The notes beneath the pieces were generated by a model. The model did no database searches and had not been told where the DNA came from. It saw only the letters and a list, made by a program, of their open reading frames with translations. Source: Bacteroidetes bacterium GWF2_35_48 (GTDB lineage Bacteria; Bacteroidota; Bacteroidia; Bacteroidales; GWF2-35-48). Taken from it: DNA of 64,000 nucleotides. The stretch spans positions 22,322-86,321 of the forward strand of contig MEOG01000103.1 in the NCBI GenBank assembly GCA_001769125.1. The letters are read 5' to 3'. Made by a program: the position numbers and the translations under genes. Each line of letters begins with the position of its first letter. Within the stretch, counting starts at the first letter, position 1. Shown here piece by piece: positions 18,038-60,497 of this stretch.

Positions 18038-18089
18038 CCCCGCGCCTAAAAAGAAGTATGTGGCTGATTAATATGTATTTATATTGAGG

Positions 18090-18123
18090 AATGTGGCATC
18101 GTCCCATGGGACGATGGTACATT
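18090..18123. repeat. CATG-centred palindrome, copy A
   Basis: The perfect 20-bp palindrome CATCGTCCCATGGGACGATG (18097-18116) lies inside outer arms AATGT/ACATT. It sits between lpxD and lpxC/fabZ. Copy B (50646-50665) differs from it by two compensated base pairs. Confidence 0.85.
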
Positions 18124-18141
18124 GCCATACATAAAGATATA

Positions 18142-19182
18142 TTATTTCGATTCTTTAAGGTTTTTTATTTCCTTTTGGAGTTCCAGAATTTGCTTTCTGA
18201 GTTGGGGAAGTTGTTTGAAAAGGACGTATGATTTTTGATACTCGTGGATATTAAATGACGGTGAACCCTGAACAATGATTCCTTTTTCTTTAATAGTAGT
18301 ACCGATACCCGACTGAGCCGCTATTTTAACCTCATCTGCTATGGATATATGACCGATAACACCAACCTGACCTGCAATCATACATTTTTTTCCTATTTTT
18401 GTTGACCCAGAAATGCCGGTTTGAGCACAGATTACAGTATTTTCTCCGATTTCAACATTGTGGGCAATTTGAATCAGATTGTCGAATTTAACTCCTTTGC
18501 GGATAATTGTTGACCCAATTGTTGCCCTGTCAATTGTTGTATTTGCGCCGACTTCAACCTTATCCTCTATAACAACATTTCCAATTTGGGGAACTTTTTT
18601 ATAACTATCGGCAGATTGCATGGCAAATCCAAAACCATCAGCCCCAATAACAACACCGCTATGAAGAATGCAATCTGATCCGATTACGCAAGCGTGATAA
18701 ATTTTCACTCCGGCATATAAAATAGTGTTATCACCAATCTGAACATTCTCGCCAATAAAAACCTGAGGATAAATTTTTACGTTGTTGCCAATTTTTACAT
18801 TTTTTCCGATATAAGCAAAGGCTCCTAAATAAATATTTTCTCCTATTATTGCAGATTCGTCAATAAAAGTCATTTTATCAATACCCTTAGGTTGTGGAAG
18901 GGATTGATTGTAAAGTTCAAGCAGCGATGCAAAAGCTTCATAGGCATTTTCTACCCTGATAAGTGTTGCAGCAACAGGTTTTTCTGCTTTAAAATTATTA
19001 TTAACCAAAACAATAGTTGCTTCAGTAGTATATATAAAATGAGTATATTGAGGATTAGCAAGAAAACATAAAGAGCCGGGTTTTCCTTCTTCAATTTTTG
19101 AAACAGTAGTTACAACTGCTTCAGGGTTACCCTCAACGTTTCCTTTTAAAAATGTGGCAATTGCCTTGGCCGTAAATTCCAT
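18142..19182 (-). CDS. lpxD: UDP-3-O-acylglucosamine N-acyltransferase
   Basis: The third lipid A enzyme, N-acylating UDP-3-O-acyl-GlcN. It has 346 residues: an N-terminal uridine-binding domain (1-100), a hexapeptide beta-helix (about 105-310) with the catalytic His in [13 protein letters not shown] near 240, and a C-terminal helical tail (about 320-346: [15 protein letters not shown]). It has a good promoter at 19206-19235. A palindrome lies in the 152-bp gap before lpxC/fabZ. Confidence 0.96.
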
Positions 19183-44534: not shown

Positions 44535-44555
44535 TTTTTGGGTTTTTGGGTTTTT

Positions 44556-44617
44556 GGGTGTGTATTTGATATGCAGAGACGTTGCATGCAACGTCTTTAC
44601 ATACCAAAATCACACCC
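44556..44617. repeat. CATG-centred palindrome, copy D
   Basis: The perfect 20-bp palindrome AGACGTTGCATGCAACGTCT (44577-44596) lies inside outer arms GGGTGTG/CACACCC (44556-44562, 44611-44617). It sits between hom and the AOR gene. GGGTTTTT words (44535-44558) lead into it. Confidence 0.85.
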
Positions 44618-44625
44618 CAAAACAA

Positions 44626-50590: not shown

Positions 50591-50626
50591 TTTGGTTTTT
50601 TTATATTAATATTTTCGGATAATGAT

Positions 50627-50679
50627 AATTGGAATTGTATGGTACAATCGTTCCATGGAACGATTCCACATTCCAATTC
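50627..50679. repeat. CATG-centred palindrome, copy B
   Basis: The perfect 20-bp palindrome AATCGTTCCATGGAACGATT (50646-50665) lies within imperfect outer arms (AATTGGAATTGTATGG versus CCACATTCCAATT). It sits between topB and the histidine kinase gene. It is the partner of copy A (18097-18116) with two compensated base-pair changes, and the outer GAATGTGG/GTAC words are also shared in inverted orientation. Confidence 0.85.
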
Positions 50680-50682
50680 TAA

Positions 50683-51981
50683 TCATTTAATTTCTACATC
50701 TGCTTTAAAAGAAAATCCTTTCCCATCGTTATTGCCAAACAAATAATTTGCATTCACAGATTTTACTCTGCTGATAATATTTTTTAATCCCATCCCGGCT
50801 TTTGAACTCATAAAAACATCATCAAAGACAAAGCCGGAGCCATCGTCCGTATAATCAAGCTTAAGAAAATTATTCTCAATACAAAGCCGGATAACAATAT
50901 TTAAAGCATTCGCATGTTTCAGCGTATTATTTATTAATTCTTCTGTGATACGAAAAAGCACTATTTCGAACCCTGAATCAAGTCTGGTAGTATAATTCTC
51001 TGAACGAAAATCTATTTTTATTTTACCTGTAGCTTGAATTTTTTTTGTAAGCGACTCCATTGCTTTTACCAAGCCATAATCACTAATGACGCGGGGAGTA
51101 AGATTATCGGAAATTGTTCGTATGTTTGAAATAGCCTCATCAATTAATTCATTGGTATATTTAATAAATTTTTCTTTTTCATCTTTTTCAATTTCATCAG
51201 ACGCCAGCTCATTCGCATAGAGTTTTATTGTTGAAAGAAGCGGACCCAGGCCATCGTGCATTTCTTTTGCAAAGCGTTTGCGTTCTCTTTCTTCGGTATC
51301 GAGATTTGCTTTAAGAATTTTCCTTTCAAATTCTCTTCTTTCGGTAATGTCATGCGCGATGGTAAGTATTCTCTGCTCTCCTTCATAGTCAACCACCCTT
51401 GAGCTCATTTCGAGAAAAATAATTTTTTTATCTTTCGTCCAATGTTCAGACTCATAAATATGTTTTCCGTTTTTCTTGATGATTTCTATGTTTGGCTTTA
51501 CAAGGTTGATGTATTTTGGTGTTTTAATATCCTGAAAATTCATTTCAACAAGTTCTTCTCTTGTGTAACCCAATTTGCGGCAAGCCTCGTTGTTTACTTC
51601 AATAATATTACCCTCAAAATCGGCAATAAAAACTTCATCGCTGCTGGTATCAAAAATTGTTTTAAATCTTTTTTCTGAGCCGAGTAATTCTTCCTGAGAA
51701 TGCCTGAGCAAGGAGAGAATACGCTCAATACTAACTAATGCAATTATAAAAAAAATGGAAATTATTATGTCAAAAACATAGTTTTGTAAATGTATTTTAT
51801 AATTGTTTTCTAACAAATAAAAAAACAAGTCGCTAACCCTTTTAAGCGTCATCAGAAAAAAAGCAACAGCCATAATAACCCACGACTTCCGGCTGCGCGC
51901 CACACGTAAAAGGCGTATGCTCAAAACAACAGGAACCAGTTGAATTGCAACAGAAAAAGCTATCAGTAAAATGGTATTCAT
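50683..51981 (-). CDS. PAS-domain sensor histidine kinase (NarL/DegS type)
   Basis: A 432-residue inner-membrane kinase. Three hydrophobic segments (about 3-22, 34-56, 68-88) are followed by a PAS domain (about 100-215). HisKA_3 has the phospho-acceptor His242 in RFAKEMHDGLGPLLS. The HATPase_c domain (about 330-430) has ELINNTLKHANA (N box), DDGSGF (G1) and AGMGLKNI. This class signals to LuxR-type response regulators, but none is adjacent, so it is an orphan here. A TACATTTG box (52001-52008) lies 20 nt upstream of the start. Confidence 0.93.
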   Translation of the reverse strand: MNTILLIAFSVAIQLVPVVLSIRLLRVARSRKSWVIMAVAFFLMTLKRVSDLFFYLLENNYKIHLQNYVFDIIISIFFIIALVSIERILSLLRHSQEELLGSEKRFKTIFDTSSDEVFIADFEGNIIEVNNEACRKLGYTREELVEMNFQDIKTPKYINLVKPNIEIIKKNGKHIYESEHWTKDKKIIFLEMSSRVVDYEGEQRILTIAHDITERREFERKILKANLDTEERERKRFAKEMHDGLGPLLSTIKLYANELASDEIEKDEKEKFIKYTNELIDEAISNIRTISDNLTPRVISDYGLVKAMESLTKKIQATGKIKIDFRSENYTTRLDSGFEIVLFRITEELINNTLKHANALNIVIRLCIENNFLKLDYTDDGSGFVFDDVFMSSKAGMGLKNIISRVKSVNANYLFGNNDGKGFSFKADVEIK

Positions 51982-60453: not shown

Positions 60454-60497
60454 ACAGGTTGTTTTGAATCGCAGCATGCTGCGATTGTACAACCTGT
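60454..60497. repeat. CATG-centred palindrome between sdhA and sdhB, copy C
   Basis: The perfect 20-bp palindrome AATCGCAGCATGCTGCGATT (60467-60486) is enclosed by 9-bp perfect arms ACAGGTTGT (60454-60462)/ACAACCTGT (60489-60497). It begins 2 bp after the sdhA stop and ends 17 bp before the sdhB ATG. Confidence 0.88.

Follow-up and report, generated by a model that had tools for sequence, protein, structure and literature searches.

The window, by which we mean the whole stretch of 64,000 nucleotides that was analysed, holds four perfect 20-bp palindromes with arms of exactly 10 bp each, and all of them follow a stop codon at a short distance:

18097..18116, no strand: copy A, perfect 20-bp palindrome CATCGTCCCATGGGACGATG, 25 bp past the lpxD stop codon
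44577..44596, no strand: copy B, perfect 20-bp palindrome AGACGTTGCATGCAACGTCT, 29 bp past the hom stop codon
50646..50665, no strand: copy C, perfect 20-bp palindrome AATCGTTCCATGGAACGATT, 17 bp past the kinase stop codon
60467..60486, no strand: copy D, perfect 20-bp palindrome AATCGCAGCATGCTGCGATT, 14 bp past the sdhA stop codon

Pfam assignments identify the neighbours as LpxD and an LpxC fused to a FabA-like domain (copy A, both genes on the minus strand), homoserine dehydrogenase and aldehyde ferredoxin oxidoreductase (copy B), a PAS/HisKA_3 kinase and a topoisomerase (copy C), and the flavoprotein and iron-sulphur subunits of succinate dehydrogenase/fumarate reductase (copy D). The genes around all four gaps are co-directional (lpxD>lpxC-fabZ, hom>AOR, kinase>topoisomerase, sdhA>sdhB), as an earlier sequence-only reading had proposed, and the coordinates and sequences that it gave for the palindromes are all correct. 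It had also placed CATG at every centre, which was borne out by a scan of the whole window, where copies A to D are the only perfect palindromes of at least 20 bp and all are centred on CATG. Second-order Markov simulation gave a chance expectation of about 0.3 per window for arms of at least 10 bp with any centre, and the next-longest perfect palindrome is a single AT-rich one with arms of 9. The relationships that it drew among the copies need correction: the two that differ by two compensated base pairs are A (18097) and C (50646) rather than A and B, the different core belongs to B (44577) rather than C, and the outer ATCG...CGAT that had been assigned to C is kept by D (60467).

The palindromes belong to a family whose genome-wide counts lie far above random expectation, as the sequence-only reading had supposed. 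In the window's own genome (G000, 5.98 Mb), the pattern ATCGTNCCATGGNACGAT with up to two mismatches was found at 64 sites and its reversed control at 1. Among the approximately 50 matches listed, 28 are exact and 6 carry a single, necessarily broken, change. Where two changes occur together, they almost always compensate each other, contrary to the expectation for independent mutation. Five contigs (757 kb in total), picked for carrying Y1 genes and including two already known to hold copies, contain 13 CATG palindromes with arms of at least 10 bp, which suggests roughly 100 per genome, and an RNA model (R1) matched at least about 75 places. The 59 distinct copies that were fetched represent 15 different 20-bp cores, all with CATG, the core of copy C being the commonest (15/59), and pairing ends after exactly 10 bp in 46 of them. 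Copies therefore differ from one another by paired, compensating substitutions, and the central CATG never changes. A GTA(G/A)-like foot usually stands on one side and the complement of this foot on the other, and the consensus flanking the core is (A/C)TGTAN-20 bp-NTACA(A/G)T. A 5' foot GT[AG]G with the 3' complement C[TC]AC is present in the family consensus TGTAN...NTACA and in many copies; in the window the feet are partly degenerate (GCAG/TTAC in B, TTTG/GTAC in D), and A and C have one GTGG foot each. Viewed as a single strand, the element consists of an 8-bp stem, a constant CATG loop and two feet. A covariation score from pair counts on the model alignment (0.425 versus 0.160 in shuffles and at most 0.10 with slid partners) points the same way, and it weighs less than the 64-versus-1 pattern count because the inner 20 bp had been preselected as palindromes. 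An exact 18-mer search in named genomes returned five unrelated matches, about the chance number, and a literature search by the letters of the palindromes returned nothing relevant.

Perfect dyad symmetry, an invariant centre and numerous intergenic copies might also be expected of immobile binding sites for a dimeric DNA-binding protein, such as a regulator or a nucleoid protein. We consider this very unlikely, because the paired positions change freely while the pairing stays, a behaviour more in line with a folded strand than with a contact code on the double helix, and because the copies follow stop codons instead of preceding starts; the in-gene copies that track the RAYT tree and the empty orthologous gaps, both described below, also argue against it.

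The positions of the copies relative to genes were assessed with gene calls from a home-made hexamer model trained on long ORFs. Thirty-five copies lie in tandem gaps, 7 in convergent gaps and 2 in divergent gaps, and the remainder overlaps open frames, mostly at uncertain gene starts; the window copies at 44586 (called convergent) and 60476 (called inside a gene) are really tandem and were misassigned because of overlong ORF starts. The sequence-only reading had staked its comparison with REP sequences on the copies not being equally frequent in divergent gaps, and these gaps indeed hold 2 of 44 copies, although 19% of all gaps are divergent when counted and 26% when weighted by length (p=0.006 and p=0.0003, respectively). 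Within tandem gaps, the copy is closer to the upstream stop than to the downstream start in 28/36 cases (p=0.001), with a median distance to the upstream stop of 25 bp, and a T-run follows 2/37 copies versus 8/37 in the mirrored control. REPs in general lie just after stop codons and are scarce in divergent gaps (PMC3733652). Thus, the location after stops, the small number in divergent gaps and the rarity of T-runs indicate the usual REP sites and not intrinsic terminators. The palindromes could be imagined as intrinsic transcription terminators, or as cores added to terminator hairpins, that are kept for ending messages, and both their median position past stop codons and their strong predicted hairpins would suit this role. 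This explanation is nevertheless highly improbable, since copies often sit within apparent operons (e.g., sdhA-sdhB), conservation covers the CATG loop and the feet but not the stem, and RAYT genes as well as others contain the same sequence as part of their reading frame; we rejected the reading as intrinsic terminators because the T-run test fell below its mirrored control.

The sequence-only reading had likened the palindromes to REP sequences dispersed by RAYT (Y1) transposases while seeing no such gene in the window, and a search of the window confirmed that it contains none. A profile search of the genome with Pfam PF01797 (Y1_Tnp) gave ten Y1 matches, and no CATG palindrome was found near any of them. 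The negative result was false: owing to the insert that they carry, the right RAYTs fall below the model. A query with another subclass-2.4-like RAYT (from L109) led to 30 loci in the phylum that are flanked by other hairpins, none of them with CATG. The 28-mer GTAGAGACGTTGCATGCAACGTCTCTAC (one mismatch allowed) was found in 10 of 395 phylum genomes, with zero in the control, and this and similar elements are present in genomes of the same order. In one of them (G190), a complete HuH-Y1 RAYT gene contains the identical 28-mer and has it again a short way upstream, and with its protein as the query the RAYT genes of the window's genome were found:

C46:134582-135187: C46 RAYT, 209-aa frame with NHIH and YIIFNP motifs and a family palindrome in frame
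C129:51954-52487: C129 RAYT, approximately 183-aa frame with DHIH and YINNNI motifs and a family palindrome in frame

The C46 gene contains ATACGTTGCATGCAACGTAT, where TAGATACGTTGCATGCAACGTATCTA is read as VDTLHATYL between NHIH and YIIFNP, and the C129 gene contains CATCGCCCCATGGGGCGATG, with GCATCGCCCCATGGGGCGATGC between DHIH and YINNNI. The dispersed family has two main classes of core, and each gene carries one of them: copy A belongs to class ATCGYYCCATGG, the one inside the C129 gene, and copy B to class ACGTTGCATGCAACGT, the one inside the C46 gene. Cores AGACGCAGCATGCTGCGTCT, related to copy D, are present in genomes of the same order, and no RAYT with the core of copy D was found in the window's genome. 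A Y1/RAYT gene carrying the same palindrome, which the sequence-only reading had suggested looking for, therefore does exist in this genome, twice and with the palindrome in frame. Both genes have the HuH and YIxxNP motifs of a cognate gene and the same REP in the same genome, except that the last residue deviates in C129; judged from its sequence, the C129 protein may be weakened by YINNNI in place of YIxxNP. The C46 protein has no Pfam Y1_Tnp match, and the NCBIfam model NF047646 (REP-associated tyrosine transposase) matches C46 and C129 with scores of 40.8 and 47.2, below its curated cut-off of 80. Pfam Y1_Tnp searches can thus miss such genes, whose domain is split by the in-gene REP. Two further intact RAYT frames, on C132 and C41, have different palindromes in this position, and the RAYT genes on C103, C69 and C118 are broken.

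Several other Y1 loci of this genome were recorded on the way. On the window's contig, outside the window, a subclass-2.4-like RAYT (L007, G000:C103:101256-101839) is split by a frame shift and has the repeat GTCTCGGATTTGTAATCCGAGAC on both sides. In L146 (G000:C118:1-1000), a RAYT is represented by its C-terminal half (YIINNP); three AGACGGGGTNNTACCCCGTCT hairpins adjoin it, one lying where the gene is broken, and these hairpins form a third double-foot-like family in the genome. Several other Y1 genes (L002-L006, L008) mostly have the YIxNQEQHH motif and resemble subclass 1.2, which is described as lacking REPs, but some of these genes lie amid arrays of short hairpins, e.g., CATCGGTTGCACCGATG and CAAGATGTTCCACATCTTG.

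The arrangement in C46 and C129, an in-frame REP between HuH and Y, is common in the phylum: a palindrome with arms of at least 8 bp lies in this region in 41 of a sample of 49 complete group-4-like RAYTs. The centres of 37/41 share the same codon phase, and the phase in which the GTAG foot would be read as a stop is never used among the 41. When core types were placed on a RAYT tree built without the insert, they required 9 changes versus 18.1 in shuffles, and 0 of 200 shuffles was as low; the core type thus tracks the RAYT tree, which indicates that the palindrome evolves with its transposase. One may ask whether the elements move by another transposase or by a route through RNA, like the one that has been suggested for small dispersed repeats of cyanobacteria, with RAYTs being merely frequent targets. 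That all ten matches of the first Pfam search lacked a nearby CATG palindrome, and that REPs enter other genes in frame (e.g., T9SS sorting tails and SpoIIE phosphatases), would be in keeping with this idea, but a palindrome in the same region and frame of 41/49 RAYTs, with a core that tracks phylogeny, is far beyond chance targeting, and subclass 2.4 has been tied independently to such REPs (PMC6006769). We regard a different mover as extremely unlikely.

Palindromes of this kind were also observed in frame in other genes. Six copies of AGACGTTGCATGCAACGTCT occupy the same place in T9SS type A C-terminal sorting domains (L167, L176 and L180 in G420; L173, L178 and L181 in G094), within ...VETLHATSLPSGVYFY... 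or ...VKTLHATSLPSGVYFY..., which may mean either that these tails are a hot spot for REPs or that a single tagged tail has been passed from gene to gene. Together with the LpxC-FabZ fusion of the window, such sorting tails in genomes assigned to the same phylum suggest Bacteroidota as that phylum. Two paralogous genes of the window's genome carry in-frame CATG palindromes, located in the same loop of both:

L153:9726-11942 (G000 C2): TPR-SpoIIE phosphatase gene with palindrome GANNPIYVTSSHGMVTSPHGAM
L161:4728-7160 (G000 C132): TPR-SpoIIE phosphatase gene with palindrome GANNPVYVASPHGMASSSHGTM

In another genome, L089:1-430 (G036:C223) contains at least seven tandem copies of AGACGTTGCGCGCAACGTCT, mostly about 54 or 75 bp apart, with CGCG in place of CATG at the centre.

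A congener (G001) allowed comparison at loci where both neighbours of a G000 copy are adjacent. All four testable gaps (copies A and D, C88:86565 and C126:35801) are empty in G001, without the palindrome and without its outer arms. The simplest explanation is insertion in the G000 lineage, and four losses in G001 are possible. The locus of the C46 RAYT (L191) is syntenic in G001 (L257:838-1347, G001:C24), where the in-gene palindrome is CAATATGCCNNGGCATATTG; different cores at the syntenic RAYT locus of congeners indicate that a gene can keep its place while its core is exchanged. Neither CAATATGCCNNGGCATATTG nor the G000 palindrome types were found dispersed in a 548-kb sample of G001, so this genome apparently has a RAYT without dispersed copies.

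RNA folding predicted that each palindrome of the window is nested in a longer imperfect hairpin of approximately 44 to 85 nt:

18065..18149, no strand: predicted longer imperfect hairpin of copy A, with feet GTGG / GTAC and locus-specific outer arms
44550..44623, no strand: predicted longer imperfect hairpin of copy B
50621..50684, no strand: predicted longer imperfect hairpin of copy C
60454..60497, no strand: predicted longer hairpin of copy D, with outer arms ACAGGTTGT / ACAACCTGT

The enclosing hairpins of copies A and D are missing from the orthologous lpxD/lpxC and sdhA/sdhB gaps of G001. Over the family, flanks more than 6 bases from the core pair with their own partner at a mean of 14.1 versus 11.1 with other copies, and the best of 10,000 flank permutations reached 13.2, below the own-partner mean. 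The strongest outer arms are unbroken for 20-29 bp, and copy B is among those with the strongest complementarity between its own flanks. These locus-specific arms are the less explained part of the system, and they may stem from target choice, fold-back copying or later hairpin correction. Fold-back copying at or after insertion, in which the nicked end of the hairpin would prime synthesis on the adjacent host DNA, fits both the better pairing of own flanks and the four congener gaps that lack palindrome and arms alike, but we hold it to be unlikely; the arms may also reflect inverted repeats that served as insertion targets and later disappeared from the congener, or heptamer-like repeats through which flanks have words in common. 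If fold-back copying were true, every new copy would write an inverted copy of its neighbour and end inside a private longer hairpin.

The finding is well supported and the kind of element essentially known; in this family, two palindrome classes are clearly matched to two RAYTs. Double-foot REPs have been reported for TnpA_REP subclass 2.4 / RAYT group 4 in Bacteroidetes and Cyanobacteria, and an in-frame REP insertion between HuH and Y was described as unique to this group (Corneloup et al. 2018, PMC6006769). Like these, the present family has a GT[AG]G-like foot on one side and the reverse complement of this foot on the other, a long stem, many extragenic copies and a REP copy in frame within the transposase gene between the HuH and Y motifs. 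Unlike that description, it comprises two palindrome classes that each reside in a separate RAYT of the same genome; its outer arms are specific to the locus, and its feet are degenerate in several copies including B and D. Perfectly palindromic group-3 REPs from Stenotrophomonas and Marinomonas are similar in being short perfect hairpins after GTAG, and their hairpins are processed in vitro as single strands by the cognate TnpA_REP, but they belong to another transposase group and have a single foot, and cleavage has been shown for them while here it is proposed (PMC8266576). A few REP families are nested in palindromes of fixed sequence, such as GTAG-15 of Anabaena and GTAG-23 of Thermomicrobium (Di Nocera et al. 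2013, PMC3733652), which share with our family a REP within a larger palindrome, tandem and convergent gaps and a place just downstream of genes; their outer palindrome has a family consensus, whereas here the outer arms differ per locus. The elements are no REPINs, which consist of two separate inverted REP hairpins: nearly all copies are a single symmetric hairpin, and neighbouring copies, e.g., C82:55932 and 55962, are rare. The conserved bulge after GTAG of E. coli-type group-2 REPs is likewise absent, the inner 20 bp being perfectly paired and bulge-free. The small dispersed repeats SDR4-6 of Nostoc, reportedly described by Elhai et al. in 2008, are said to be about 24 nt long with compensatory mutations and often embedded in heptamer-like repeats; their likeness to our family is one of description only and serves as a lead.

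Taken together, we consider it highly probable that the palindromes are dispersed double-foot REPs, probably multiplied by the group-4 RAYT / TnpA_REP subclass 2.4 HuH-tyrosine proteins of the same genome. The family, its compensated variation, its genomic context, the in-gene copies, the core types that track the RAYT tree and the empty congener sites are observed. The resemblance to RAYT-dispersed REPs thus held up, through RAYTs that carry the palindrome, counts above chance and avoidance of divergent gaps, whereas we infer movement by the proteins, cleavage, strand transfer and any RNA effect. Because single-strand cleavage and rejoining of REPs in vitro is known for groups 2 and 3 (PMC8266576), the mechanism proposed here is drawn from this relationship. 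A site would become single-stranded, on the lagging strand or as an extruded hairpin; the enzyme would recognise foot and hairpin and nick near the foot, and the hairpin would be transferred to a new site. Copies would then persist mainly just past stop codons, in tandem and convergent gaps, where insertion is tolerated, and the transcribed hairpin might affect mRNA 3' ends. Experiments on RAYT group 4 seem to be few; the in vitro study cited (PMC8266576) covers groups 2 and 3. The genome therefore offers a clean REP-RAYT system, with two resident transposases, each containing a different palindrome class that is dispersed in the same genome. Since the in-gene palindrome lets the sequence predict which REP a given RAYT serves, REP mobility becomes directly testable, and ACGTTGCATGC and ATCGCCCCATGG are candidate hairpins for testing the C46 and C129 proteins.
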